The notes beneath the pieces were generated by a model, which was not told the DNA's origin, made no database searches, and saw only the letters and a program-made list of their open reading frames with translations. This document shows, piece after piece, positions 1,194-63,133 of a stretch of 64,000 nucleotides of DNA. The stretch covers positions 42,013 to 106,012 of the forward strand of contig RWJK01001622.1 in assembly GCA_004335835.1 (NCBI GenBank). Direction: 5' to 3'. The position numbers were made by a program, and so were the translations under genes. How positions within the stretch are numbered: position 1 is the stretch's first letter; each line of letters begins with the position of its first letter. The DNA comes from Scenedesmus sp. ARA3 (Eukaryota > Chlorophyta > Chlorophyceae > Sphaeropleales > Scenedesmaceae).

Positions 1194-1808
1194 ATGAACA
1201 GCAATGTTACAAGATACGTGTTACATCTGCTGCTGCTACTGGCGCTGGCAGCTCCGGTCCACAGCAGCAGCAGCAAGCTGAGCACGAATGGTGCTGGCAG
1301 CCCAGAGCTCTGCAGCCAGGTGCACCGAGCGTGCAACAGATGCGTTTACGCAAGGAAAACGAGAGACAGCAGCGCAGCCACGACTCTGGTTTGTTTGGGC
1401 TGCACTGGAGGCTATCGCCTGAAGAAAGCCTGGACACCAGCAGACACACCAACATGTGGTGAGCAAGTGCTTGTTGCTGGACCGTCAGTGTGCATGATGG
1501 CACGGATATCTCGTGCATGAGCAAAGCAGCAGATGCTTGATGCAAACAGAACACATTGTGCACATCTGTCACGTCGTGCAGCACCGCCAGCTGGCAGCTG
1601 CAGATCAGCATGGTACTGCCGATCCATGGGACACTTTGCCTGTTCCTGCTGTCAGTTTGAGCCTGTGCACTCGGTACCAACTTGCAAAACCCAGCTGGTA
1701 CAACATGTTTCACTTTTTCAGGACAACAACTGTCTTTGCGCCCTCTGTCATGGTGTGAAGCACCCTGCTGCCACCATCTCGATCAGGAACAAACAGCAGC
1801 ACTGCTTC

Positions 1809-1865
<57 letters not shown>

Positions 1866-1915
1866 NNNNNNNNNNNNNNNNNNNNNNNNNNNNNNNNNNN
1901 NNNNNNNNNNNNNNN

Positions 1916-1972
<57 letters not shown>

Positions 1973-58873: not shown

Positions 58874-59408
58874 GCTGCTGCTGTGCCCTCGCCAGCTGCT
58901 GGGTTTAGAGCCTGCCAGAGTCCCCTAGGCTGCTGTGATGTTGAAAACTAGGGCATTGCGGGTCTGCAGCTGGTCAATGTGTCCATCTTGACACGCGCTG
59001 CGATGCAAGGCACTACACCCCTGGCCCTGGGGATGAGCAGGTCACCTCTGCCCTTCATGACACCAGGTGACTGGGGCGTGTTGGTCGGTCAACGAAAGAT
59101 GTAGGCGAGTATACTGCAGTGTTTTGCGATACAAGTGCTTGGATCACGGCAGGCGCGAAGATTGCTTGGTGTTGCTGTCTTTGCCTTTGAGAGTTCTGTG
59201 AAGCTGACAAGGCGTGAAACCTGTACCAAAAACTTTGAGAGACAGTAAAAGACACGGAACGCTTGTTTTCAGCTTGCGTAACCTGGCCGCAGCACAAAAG
59301 CCGAGCCCCAGTGCTTGAACCCCGCAACCCAGGCCAGTAAGCTTAAGCAGGTAGCTGCCGTGTAAGCGGCCCTCTTTCCTCTCTAGGAGTTGTCTAGGGA
59401 GAGTCACC
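58874..59408. promoter_or_regulatory. Shared 535-bp region between PIG-A and RPL19
   Basis: The start codons of PIG-A (-) and RPL19 (+) face away from each other across this region, which must hold both promoters and 5' UTRs. A pyrimidine-rich string CCCTCTTTCCTCTCT lies about 25-40 bases before the RPL19 start, reminiscent of the 5' TOP tract of translation-machinery mRNAs. That comparison is inference. No canonical TATA box was noted. Confidence 0.5.
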
Positions 59409-61337
59409 ATGGTGTCGCTCAAGCTGCAGAAGCGGCTTGCCGCTTCTGTCCTGGGATGCGGCCTCCGCAAGGTCTGGCTGGACCCCAATGAGGTCAACGA
59501 GATCTCCATGGCCAACTCTAGTGAGTTCAGCTGCTTCTGGAACATCTTCCGGCCGTGTGACATAGTCGCAGTGGCAGCATGGCTGGAGGCGGCCTCTGCT
59601 GTGCTACAGGTCGGGCACAGCACTGATCCAGCCGGCGTAGGCTACTTTGAACGATGGGTTAACTCGCCGATCAAAGGAGCAGCTGGTGCCAAGGCAGCGT
59701 TGGAGCAGCAGCACTGGCAGCAGCAGCACACTCGTGTTGCTCCGCGTATGCGGCCATGCAACCGTCTCAACACAGTCCTCAAACCATAACAGCCTATATA
59801 CGATGCTTCATCACCACCATGCATGCATTCCAGGCCTAGAACTGAACATGTTCCTGCCCTGCTGCTGTCCTTGCTTCTGTGTTGCTTTGCCTGTTGCTTT
59901 GCATGTTCATCATAACAGGGCAGAACATCAGGAAGCTGGTGAAGGATGGCTTTGTGATTCGCAAGCCCACCACCATCCACTCCCGCGCCAGGGCCAGGCG
60001 CCAGGCAGAGGCCAAGGCAAAGGGCCGCCACACCGGCTACGGTGAGCAGCAGGCCTGCGCAGCTTGCGTTGCTTTGCTTTGCTTTCGATGTATGTGTATG
60101 ATCCGATAGCAAGCAGTAGTGCTACAGTGCAACTGGGCAAAGGGGTAGCAGCGGGTGCAAGCAGCAGGTGCAGCTGTGTGGGTGTGTTCAGCAGCAGAGT
60201 GCGCAGCAGACAGGGACCGGCAGACGCACGGCACGCACGGCACGGCTGCCGAGGAGCTGCAGCTGCACACGCAAGCCTACGTGGCAGCAGCAGCCTCAGC
60301 ACAAGCCACATGAGATGGATCAGGAGTGCGGCAAGCAGTGGCTGGGTCGCCAGCAGCTGGTGGCTTACAGAGCCGCAGGCGGTCCCTGGCAGCAGCAGCA
60401 GTAACAGCTGGCGGCATGTGGCAGCCGCGCATGGCGTTGTTTACCACTGCTGGTGCTTGTAGCTGGAGCGGCAGTGCCCTTGCAGCAGCTGCTGGAGGCA
60501 GCAGCATCTGCGGAGCGTGCGCAAGCTGCTGGCGGCGCTGTGTCAGTCACAGCTGCCACCCCAACTGCAGGAGCAGTGGCACTGCAGCAGCAGCCATGCA
60601 GGCCGCACAGCTGCCGGATGTGTTGTGTGGCGCAGTGCATCGGCTGCATCAAAATGCGCGGCAGCTTTTGTCTATTGGATCAGCACAGCTATGGCTGCGG
60701 GGGATTTAGCACTGCTGGAGGGATGGAGCAGTGCAGTGGCGTTTGAGGCTGGCTTTACAGTGCAGCTAGGGCATGGTGCAGCTAAGGCAGTTGGCAGTGG
60801 CTAATTATGGAGCAGCAGGGAATATGCATTGCTGCGCTGGCGCTGGTTGCTGCAGCGTTGTCTTGCAGCTTTTTAAGCTGGGAAGCTGTCGGGCAACGCA
60901 GCGGCAGCCAGCGCCACACTCGACTGCTTTGCATCTTGCCTTGCATATTGGCTTGACACAGCTGTACATAGGAGATTGGTTTGCCTGCATGAACGGCATG
61001 TCCCTGGCTGGTGTGGGGTTGATCTTTCTCGTGTGGAGGCGGCAGCAGATTGTTGCGTTCTCTGGCTTTCAGCGGCGCTAGTGCACGGCTGTAGGGTGAC
61101 TGCAGCAGGTGCTGATGGCTTGCAGACCAGCACCGGCACCCAACTGCCAGCACTGCCAGCATGCATTCAAATGCATTGCAAACTGCTTTGCTACTGTGTT
61201 GCGGCATTGTAGCAGTCTACCGCCCTTGTGACTGTACATCAGTTGGCACGCATATGCTCACAGTGTGTCCTGCTGCTCCCTTCAATGCCATGTATTGGTT
61301 CTGCAGAACGCCGTCAGCTCTTTCTCAACACTTTGCC

Positions 61338-61384
<47 letters not shown>

Positions 61385-63133
61385 TAAGCGCCGCGGAACC
61401 CGCGAGGCGCGCCTGCCCACCAAGCTGCTGTGGATCCGCCGCCTGCGCGTGCTGCGCCGCCTGCTGCGCAAGTACAGGGACAGCAAGAAGATCGACAAGC
61501 ACCTCTACCACGAGCTATACATGAAGGTGCGGGCAGCTGTTGTGCATGTTACATGAATGCCTCAAGTACTAGCATAGGATAGTGTTCTGCAAATTCTAAT
61601 GTGCTTGAACAGCAAGAAGATCGACAAGCTCCTCTACCACAAGCTGTACCTGAAGGTGTGCTGGTGCTGTTGGCGTCATGTACGCGCACCACCACTGCTA
61701 AAGCCTATGCTTGTGAAGTTGCATGCATCTGGGTTGGGTGCACACAGCTGTACATGAAGGTGGGGTGGCAGGTGCTTGTTGCAGCTGCTCTGCGGGGTGG
61801 TTCAAAAAGTAGAGCTCTGGCTCCAGGGAGCAGCAGCAGCAGTTGCGTGGAGGGCCAACCCTAGCTTTGTGTCTTTTCAAATCCTGCTGCTCACCAGACC
61901 CTGCTGTTGCTGTGTCACCGCGCAGGTCAAGGGTAACGTGTTCAAGAACAAGCGCGTGCTGATTGAGGCCGTGCACAAGCAGAAGGCTGAGAAGGTGCGG
62001 AGCGCAGCACATACCACTTGTGTGGCTGCTTGTGTACAACTTCAGCATGGCAGCCATTCACAATTGCCTTTGTGACCGCAGCAGCTTCGCTGTGGGCCTC
62101 AGCGCGTTGCAGGATGTGCACCTCGCACGCCATGCCAGCCCCACAGCCCACCACATGCGCATACTATCAGGCATATTGCATTTTTGCAACATCATGAACC
62201 TTGTTGCTGCCCCTGACCTGTCACTCTGTGTCACACTTGATTGGCTCGAACACCAGGTGCGCGAGAAGGCCATTGCTGACCAGTTTGAGGCGCGCCGCGC
62301 CAAGAACAAGGCCACACGCGAGCGCAAGGCGGCACGCCGCGAGGAGCGCCTGAGCTCGGTGAGTGTGAATGGGATGTAGAATTTCGGTTGAGTGTATGAA
62401 GCAGTTGACAGCGACCACTTGGAGCAATGGCAGCGGCTCTAAGTGGGCAGCAGTTCCAAGCTGATTTCAGCTATAGTCGAGGAGCAGCTGGGTCCTGTGA
62501 GCAGGAGGGTGCTTAAACACTTTCATGTCAGGCGATGTCAGCTGTGGTACCGGCAGCAGATTCCTTGAGCGTGTTTGTGGTTGGTTGGGCGGCCTTTGAT
62601 CAGCCTTGTGCACTGTGCAGGGTGCACTGCTGCTTCAGCGTCTCTGTCTGCGTGGTATAGCCACACGGCTTGTCGGCTTGCTCTGCAGCGCACACAGTGC
62701 TGTTGCTTGCGAGCTCTGTTCGTCACTGCTACTGTCCTCTGGCAGCAGCAGCAGCGAACAGAGCCTGCAGACAATGACACTGTGTGGCTGCATGTGCACA
62801 GGCTGCAAGTCGTGTGTTGATGTCAATTTGTTGCGATAGTTTGTGCTATGTCATTCAGTGCTGCCAGAGCCTGCACCCTCAGCAGACCAGGCACATTCTT
62901 CTATTGTTTGTTGCGTTTGTGCCTGTCTGATGTCTTTTTTGCATATCTCTCCATGTGTGCTGCAGGGCCTGCACATGGAGCAGCAGGGTTTGCATACAAA
63001 ACCTTTGCATTCTGTGTTACATTCTGCGTCATAGCATGTGTTACTTTTCTGTTATGTGCTGCAGGGCCTGCACATGGAGCAGCAGCCTGCTGCTGCAGCA
63101 CAGCCCGCTGCCACCAAGGGCTCCAAGAAGTAG
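59409..63133 (+). CDS. RPL19: 60S ribosomal protein L19 (eL19)
   Basis: Six exons join in frame to 205 codons plus stop: 59409-59520, 59919-60041, 61384-61526, 61926-61994, 62257-62358 and 63065-63133. The product matches eL19 throughout: SLKLQKRLAASVLGCG, KVWLDPNEVNEI, IRKLVKDGFVIRKP, HSRARARRQAEAKAKGRHTG, GTREARLPTKLLWIRRLRVL, KKIDKHLYHELYMK, GNVFKNKRVLIEAVHKQKAE and a basic C-terminal helix. It is a structural protein of the large cytosolic ribosomal subunit. Length is within the normal range. The start codon lies in a good context (CACCATGG). Exon 6 encodes GLHMEQQPAAAAQPAATKGS and KK. Intron 2 ends in (CTG)13 directly before the acceptor. Introns 3 and 5 contain echoes of exon edges. No snoRNA was recognised in the introns. 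Confidence 0.98.
61341..61383 (+). repeat. (CTG)13 tract abutting the RPL19 intron-2 acceptor
   Basis: An uninterrupted CTG run is followed by CCAG and then exon 3 (GTAAGCGCC). It occupies the place of the usual pyrimidine tract. Confidence 0.9.
61612..61759 (+). repeat. Two copies of RPL19 exon 3 end in intron 3
   Basis: The exon 3 end SKKIDKHLYHELYMK with donor at 61526 recurs as SKKIDKLLYHKLYLK, donor after 61655, and as a shorter AGCTGTACATGAAG, donor after 61759. The steps are 129 and 104 bp. Confidence 0.88.
62961..62986 (+). repeat. Copy of RPL19 exon 6 start in intron 5
   Basis: TGCAG plus the first 21 bases of exon 6 (GLHMEQQ) occur with exon-start position 62966, exactly 99 bp before the real exon at 63065. 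The flanking GTGTGCTGCAG is also shared. Confidence 0.88.

Follow-up and report, generated by a model that had tools for sequence, protein, structure and literature searches.

Minisatellites form head-to-tail arrays, some of them with periods of at least 100 bp, and introner elements form dispersed families in lineages with unusual intron turnover. That new introns can arise by tandem duplication across or within exons is accepted (PMC3443670, PMC4974935, PMC2891723), and capture of proximal DNA during repair is described as duplicating splice sites in vertebrates (PMC2671141). Here we analyse a stretch of 64,000 nucleotides from the green alga Scenedesmus sp. ARA3 (assembly GCA_004335835.1, contig RWJK01001622.1, positions 42,013 to 106,012 of the forward strand; hereafter the window), in which introns contain copies of the adjoining exon edge, splice site included. 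We call such a copy an echo. An initial annotation of the window had reported echoes in five genes. We establish that local same-strand duplication across splice junctions has occurred repeatedly, is biased towards exon edges in the genes tested and goes along with introns that are twice as long.

The window is part of an 87.27-Mb assembly in 1567 contigs; N runs are present in the window and in some of the further loci used here. The CCT-eta protein predicted from this assembly is almost identical to Tetradesmus obliquus protein P0003, and CCT-alpha is 98% identical to T. obliquus P0242, which assigns the genome to T. obliquus or a very near relative (Scenedesmaceae, Sphaeropleales). A published T. 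obliquus assembly comprises 108 Mb in 1,368 scaffolds, with a mean intron length of 462 bp, above that of the four other algae in the same table (PMC5966456).

Echoes in chaperonin genes

To avoid choosing cases by eye, we took the chaperonin (CCT) genes as a set. A PF00118 search of the assembly for chaperonin exons gave 59 matches on 11 contigs, and repeats were directly visible among them, for example where profile positions 45-72 and 45-100 were both matched within one gene. With a spliced aligner written for this study we then obtained predicted models of eight CCT genes with 90 introns. All statistics rest on profile-based models for the eight genes, including eta and epsilon, which had been fitted earlier to near-identical T. 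obliquus proteins. None of the 12 introns of zeta contained an echo, and these introns are excluded wherever the denominator is 78 introns (the seven echo-bearing genes). As the initial annotation had stated, copies recur in introns of unrelated genes, namely the five genes of the window and seven of the eight CCT genes.

At a local-alignment score of at least 25, 67 of the 156 exon edges of the seven genes had a copy in their own intron. Dispersal of the introner type was not seen at this score when the other introns of the same gene were searched: they gave 10 hits in 1,600 trials, all of them in the intron across the same exon. The reverse strand, used as a control at the same score, gave none (0 of 156 edges), and the top score of 180 shuffled trials was 14.7. 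With the threshold lowered to 20, the own intron was hit for 73 of 156 edges and other introns in 23 of 1,600 trials, 10 of these 23 lying outside the neighbouring intron. Introns with a copy on at least one side numbered 47 of 78 at score 25 and 50 of 78 at score 20. When alpha was refitted to P0242, 10 of its 13 exons were kept, while exons 1 and 13 and the end of exon 6 moved; the edge counts at score 25 then became 68/156 for the own intron and 11/1600 for other introns, still with 47 of 78 introns. The refitted alpha was used for these edge counts only, and all remaining statistics come from the earlier alpha model.

By a BLAST criterion, echoes were present in 48 of the 78 introns (26 on the donor side, 38 on the acceptor side, 16 on both), distributed as 11/12 in alpha, 8/12 each in epsilon and theta, 7/9 in delta, 6/10 in beta, 5/12 in gamma and 3/11 in eta. 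Introns that bear copies of their borders make up half or more of the total in five of the eight CCT genes, and these copies are at many stages of decay. Up to seven donor copies with different variants were found in one intron, and where an intron held both kinds, donor copies preceded acceptor copies (20/20). From junction to junction, the copies were spaced about 125 bp apart in the median and never closer than 88 bp (n=60 and 68). Median intron length was 632 bp with echoes versus 315 bp without.

Echo density is very uneven within the genome. Self-matches covered 30% of 94.6 kb of chaperonin loci in 76 clusters, as compared to 9 clusters in 70 kb from seven arbitrarily chosen contig starts. 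Stretches with PRP8 and dynein gave three clusters each at loci L058 and L052 and none at L056 and L057. Coverage by local duplications fell steeply with the GC (guanine plus cytosine) content of the locus (Spearman -0.81, n=21; loci L032-L058, with the window, L051, L036 and L041 excluded). Four loci of 58.8-61.6% GC (L034, L046, L047, L049) had no local duplications at all, and the excluded L051 breaks the trend, with 33% covered by two long clusters at 63.9% GC.

Exon edges versus intron interiors

The initial annotation had left open whether duplications favour exon edges and had proposed a comparison with intron interiors, which we ran on the CCT genes. We counted 75 repeat families, leaving out 2 of 77 that overlap an exon without including a junction. 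An exon edge was included in 63 of them, versus an expectation of 24.0 based on aligned length or 38.7 if a unit of 130 bp is assumed; in the youngest families (at least 95% identity) the count was 19 of 21, with 9.8 or 14.5 expected, respectively. In contrast, none of the 42 introns without edge copies contained an interior repeat.

Since interior duplications might be harder to see, we used the spacers of edge arrays, which were duplicated at the same time, as a control for detectability and searched them with the exon-derived parts masked. Repeats were still detected in 14 of the 48 echo introns. This number includes two interior events and one intron explained by the moved alpha exon 6, so that stricter counts are 12 or 11. 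Under uniform duplication, discounted by detection, 21.6 interior events were expected (18.5 or 16.9 with the stricter counts), that is 17-22, whereas a reading of the repeat list yielded about two independent ones (alpha intron 2 and beta intron 4). The probability of two or fewer is 2e-6 or 7e-6 with detection in 12 or 11 introns, and even six interior events would be improbable (P of 8e-5 to 2e-3 for six or fewer, the two stricter counts giving 8e-4 and 2e-3). A purely geometric null predicts that 41% of the units span an edge and 11% cover a whole exon; whole-exon units, judged by eye and uncounted, were seen rarely. These results support an edge bias in the genes tested.

Anatomy of the copies

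Profiles across the junction were built from 60 donor and 67 acceptor copies. On the donor side, identity to the exon was.92-.94 over the last 24 bp and.92 at the first three bases of the donor, then dropped to.71 at the next three and.60-.67 further on, with shuffled spacers at.53-.60. The acceptor side mirrored this pattern, with.89-.90 across the exon's first 32 bp and.94 at the last three intron bases, versus.75 at the preceding three and.64-.68 beyond (shuffled,.49-.65). Exon parts are about 92% alike, and the likeness breaks down within 4-6 bp of the splice site. A sharp drop is expected in part, as the exon is constrained while spacers change on both sides.

By a shuffle test, spacers were demonstrably related in 44 of 125 exon-echo pairs and 43 of 114 echo-echo pairs (87/239 in total), unrelated in 66 and 64 and intermediate in 15 and 7. 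Since the related pairs are clear, duplication of the whole unit is certain for part of the copies; that spacers are wholly unrelated was ruled out both by this test and by reading whole spacers. Full-length duplicated units were found in epsilon intron 11 and in an array of a TMEM237-like gene of the window, and spacers can be as alike as the exon parts (for example in the beta 8, theta 9 and epsilon 11 units). Yet even among pairs with related spacers, which are not independent of each other, exon parts matched better than spacers did in 41 of the 44 exon-echo and 31 of the 43 echo-echo comparisons.

The opposite extreme is represented by a copy in alpha intron 8 that is identical to the exon over 68 bp but has unrelated flanks. 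Near-identical edge copies with unrelated flanks also occur in alpha intron 5, delta intron 7 and gamma intron 8, and seven echo-echo pairs at.96-1.00 have spacers that are not detectably related. Plain tandem duplication, the process invoked in the initial annotation, explains neither these near-identical exon parts beside unrelated spacers nor how abruptly similarity is lost at the splice site. We also noted CCCTAAA-like repeats of telomeric type in the spacers of CCT-alpha intron 4 (L035, 4256-4898).

Splice sites and coding constraint

We scored the best splice site within 3 bp of each junction. Median scores of echo and real sites were 4.5 versus 5.1 for donors and 3.7 versus 4.1 for acceptors, and the lower quartile of real sites was reached by 35 of the 60 donors and 36 of the 67 acceptors among the echoes. 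In this respect the proposed stock of spare splice sites is real, but weak acceptors are commoner among echoes (26/67 versus 10/78). The initial annotation is likewise correct that the full exon adjoins the first donor or the last acceptor, but this says nothing on splicing: a tandem duplication spanning a junction always leaves the intact exon outside, and the continuity is unavoidable geometry.

A further proposal, that the duplications are a route to new introns, fits a single case. The signature of AGGT-type intron gain, in which the intron opens with the same sequence as the next exon and splicing between the copies would restore the coding sequence, was found in one of the 78 non-zeta introns, alpha intron 12, in which positions 0-55 match positions 0-55 of exon 13 at 91%. 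The whole exon recurs there (L036, 887-1700), and the intron looks as if made by duplication across an AG-GT site. Otherwise the copies examined are mostly partial exons with one splice site, unlike duplicated cassette or mutually exclusive exons; the exceptions are alpha exon 13 and an array at 25694-26306 of the window. Cassette exons were also rejected by eye: in 56 donor and 66 acceptor copies, a consistent second splice site was not seen at the outer end. Another rejected candidate was intron hairpins that hide the copies. The first and last 100 nt of introns pair above shuffled sequence (mean z -1.1), but no better than when ends of different introns are combined (-0.11), and the same behaviour is seen in echo-free and zeta introns. 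We observed, in addition, that composition drifts from G-rich to C-rich along the introns of all eight CCT genes (in echo introns, G from.35 to.24 and C from.18 to.28). Since echo-free and zeta introns share this drift, it is unrelated to echoes.

Two T. obliquus protein models contain echo-like repeats. P0244, a CCT-alpha model listed as second product under OEZ86_010546, repeats VLESGSVVP, the nine residues that end exon 10, and in our assembly the intron after alpha exon 10 holds five donor copies. The gene of P0244 lies on a 4.4-Mb contig, alpha here on a 43-kb contig. In P0122, a CCT-epsilon model, an extra VEQYAMRAFAD block corresponds to an epsilon intron 11 echo whose sequence is not the same as in our assembly. 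Judged from these predicted proteins, splicing may leak echoes into protein.

Between exon and echo, synonymous divergence (dS) was.23 and nonsynonymous divergence (dN).063 (dN/dS.27); between echoes, dS was.25 and dN.105. Exon-echo mismatches amounted to.061,.058 and.169 at the three codon positions, changes unique to one echo were found 112 times at third positions versus 69 and 59 times at the others, and thirty copies without any nonsynonymous difference still differed at 19% of synonymous sites. While this synonymous-rich change suggests a coding function of the copies, the suggestion is weakened by internal indels, 26 of which break the frame whereas 7 do not. By arithmetic, capture of the exon's synonymous change in later copies, combined with about twofold faster synonymous mutation, may reproduce the ratios.

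Exon-edge copies in the window

Of the 50 direct matches that self-BLAST of the window yielded, 49 were local, with offsets no larger than 722 bp, and the remaining one was distant, at an offset of 13,074; the three inverted matches were all distant. With stricter settings, 19 local clusters covered 12.6% of the window. Read by eye, nearly all local matches represent copies either of an exon end with its donor, placed downstream of the exon, or of an exon start with its acceptor, placed upstream of it. We read all five gene regions named in the initial annotation and found exon-edge copies with a splice site in each. Three of these genes we take, from their translations, to be RPL19, a TMEM237-like gene and an ABHD-like gene. 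PIG-A is backed by Pfam just at the cut-off (27.1 versus 27 bits). Five of seven proteins submitted, the TMEM237-, ABHD- and Cys-rich fragments, matched no Pfam family at E of at most 0.01.

The Cys-rich gene (plus strand) has an exon 3' edge with its donor at 3303-3380 and one downstream copy at 3456-3532 (86%; whole feature 3303-3532). A donor edge with two copies follows at 4669-4943 (4774-4828, 96%, and 4905-4943), as do a donor-edge unit of about 190 bp in three copies (5391-5978) and an acceptor-edge copy at 6094-6139 upstream of the real edge at 6316-6361 (91%; 6094-6361). In the TMEM237-like gene (minus strand), three donor edges and one acceptor edge are echoed, and one of the donor edges is present in seven copies. 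The edge with its donor at 10110-10180 has one copy at 9943-10013 (96%; 9943-10180), and that at 11115-11192 one at 10948-11025 (90%; 10948-11192). The third forms an array of the full exon and six copies with a period of about 115 bp and spacers that are alike (11756-12508). At 10201-10806, an acceptor-edge array comprises five copies, the last one continuous with the exon. The TMEM237-like array, the only one compared between genes, had no match elsewhere in the assembly in a search that skipped simple repeats and very common words.

In the ABHD-like gene (plus strand), an exon-edge copy lies upstream (86%; 16796-16998), followed by an acceptor-edge array of three copies, the first recognized by eye only (17150-17388), an exon edge with its donor and one copy (85%; 17765-17967) and an acceptor-edge array of four copies, one with an in-frame stop (18011-18618). 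PIG-A (minus strand) carries three donor-edge arrays: the full exon with three copies at a period of 233-247 bp (54542-55395), an exon with degraded copies (56214-56721) and an exon with three copies (57239-57812). Acceptor-edge copies lie at 55456-55510, upstream of the real edge (whole feature 55341-55510), and at 57990-58048, upstream of the edge at 57870-57928 (57870-58048). In RPL19 (plus strand), the exon edge with its donor at 61480-61529 has one copy at 61609-61658 (92%; 61480-61658), and an acceptor-edge copy at 62956-62986 lies 99 bp upstream of the real edge of the last exon at 63055-63085, identical over 31 bp (62956-63085).

At least one array extends the list of the initial annotation: at 25694-26306 (minus strand), by self-BLAST and by eye, an exon-like unit of about 80 bp with both splice sites is repeated and decays. 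A clear exception to the edge pattern is a 282-bp local duplication (89%) at 27802-28486, which has stops in all six frames and no recognizable exon. Two further observations concern the window as such. The segments 22940-24991 and 45570-47647 are paralogous in opposite orientation (72-75% alike over about 1.9 kb), and very long CTG/CAG runs occur (for example at 1810-1972 and 22093-22186), with an N gap inside one.

Discussion

We favour, at a probability of roughly one half, recurrent duplication across splice sites followed by exchange confined to the exon-derived part of the copies, tolerated since the site attached to the full exon prevails. Stretches of about 90-190 bp straddling a splice junction would be tandemly duplicated over and over and, as the anatomy of the copies shows, would necessarily land in the intron adjoining the intact exon. 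The copies would bring working-looking splice sites, with splicing staying at the site joined to the full exon, presumably through exon definition or proximity. Unequal exchange or conversion would continue to act among the exon and the exon-derived parts of the copies, spacers would meanwhile drift or get swapped, and exons would act as islands of homology among fast-diverging introns. The net outcome would be longer introns and a reserve of extra splice sites, for the most part functionless. Exchange limited to exon-derived parts would account at once for the edge bias, for similarity stopping sharply at the splice site and for spacers being related in some pairs and unrelated in others.

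Several points weigh against this reading. The gene models are predictions, and the exchange is something we infer and never observed. For the 66 of 125 exon-echo pairs without detectably related spacers, unit duplication is not demonstrated, and echoes were found by their similarity to the exon, which biases the exon part upwards. Moreover, we reason that with mutation and conversion in balance the synonymous to nonsynonymous ratio should be at most about 2, while we found 3.9 for exon-echo and 2.4 for echo-echo pairs, unless synonymous sites mutate about twice as fast.

Tentatively, one might go further and see exon edges as hot spots of continuing duplication and exchange. Recombination between homologues would be funnelled into exons because introns diverge too fast to pair, and misalignment of edge copies would both multiply copies and shuffle unrelated spacers. 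Introns would then grow outward from the borders of exons, and numerous genes would have a renewable supply of near-identical splice sites, some of which would reach the proteome.

Could the pattern arise from plain recurrent tandem duplication at random places followed by neutral decay, with edges standing out since introns are short and exons stay recognizable? Geometry alone makes 41% of the units edge-spanning, the beta 8, theta 9 and epsilon 11 units have spacers as alike as their exon parts, frame-breaking indels indicate that copies are not kept as coding sequence, and the edge excess is small in the youngest families with a 130-bp unit (19/21 versus 14.5). However, interior duplications are too few even after the discount for detection, the step at the splice site is very sharp, and the alpha intron 8 copy keeps 68 identical bp beside unrelated spacers, which makes this account doubtful. 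Such near-identical edge copies with unrelated flanks are what would be expected if the repair of intronic breaks captured nearby DNA by synthesis-dependent strand annealing and pasted in exon-edge pieces without spacer, and the vertebrate events described are of similar size (median 147 bp, PMC2671141). We regard capture as unlikely, as the ends of captured segments should fall anywhere and not at the splice site, and neither the regular spacing of about 125 bp nor the many arrays of true head-to-tail units fit it.

Selection might instead keep the copies, either because they provide decoy or back-up splice sites or because they are exon ends that get translated from time to time. The dN/dS of.27, the concentration of mismatches at third codon positions, the many echo splice sites that are still strong and the repeats within the two protein models would agree with this, but 26 of 33 indels break the frame, the third-position excess is partly explicable by capture of the real exon's synonymous change in later copies, weak acceptors are enriched among echoes, and, on inspection, the outer ends of copies lacked a consistent second splice site. 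We consider selection quite improbable. Least credible is an assembly artefact in which diverged haplotypes or reads were misjoined near exon edges. Synonymous-rich differences and unrelated flanks would fit diverged haplotypes, and the assembly is fragmented into its 1567 contigs with N runs; but up to seven donor copies per intron, with different variants and regular spacing, would not be expected, and in our judgement a dN of.06 seems too high for chaperonin alleles. P0244 and, apparently, P0122 do not derive from this assembly and still carry echo-like repeats, which suggests that no artefact underlies at least these two introns.

How introns originate and grow and how splice sites are gained is an old question with few living examples, and echoes at many stages of decay allow its direct study. 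They also provide a natural test of how the spliceosome chooses among almost identical sites. In practical terms, they may mislead gene prediction, as the repeats in the two T. obliquus models illustrate.

Compared with known systems, the echoes share with introners a lineage of unusual intron turnover, but the copies come from the neighbouring exon. Unlike minisatellites, they are anchored on splice junctions, and their spacers are often unrelated while the exon part is alike. In the intron gains described for potato RdRp (PMC4974935) and Drosophila (PMC2891723) and in a review (PMC3443670), local duplication that includes splice-site sequence likewise gives extra donors or acceptors, and the potato duplication crosses an intron-exon boundary as the echoes do; the cases described there are single events that made a new intron, whereas here edges of existing introns were copied up to seven times, and this in numerous introns from several genes. 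Repair capture as described in PMC2671141 also produces short local copies of about 150 bp with splice sites among the duplicated sequence, but those are single insertions inside transposons from which tandem duplications were excluded, while echoes are tandem, multi-copy and tied to edges. The direct repeats at intron-exon borders in PMC11782384 resemble echoes in position; they are 4-30 bp long (mean 11.4) and are read there as traces of intron insertion, whereas echoes place 20-100 bp of exon edge inside the intron. Within the open-access literature, to which our searches were confined and which leaves out subscription journals, we found no report of such echoes in Scenedesmaceae. As far as these searches tell, the elements of the phenomenon are known, while its density, its anchoring to exon edges and the decoupling of the exon part from the spacer are new.

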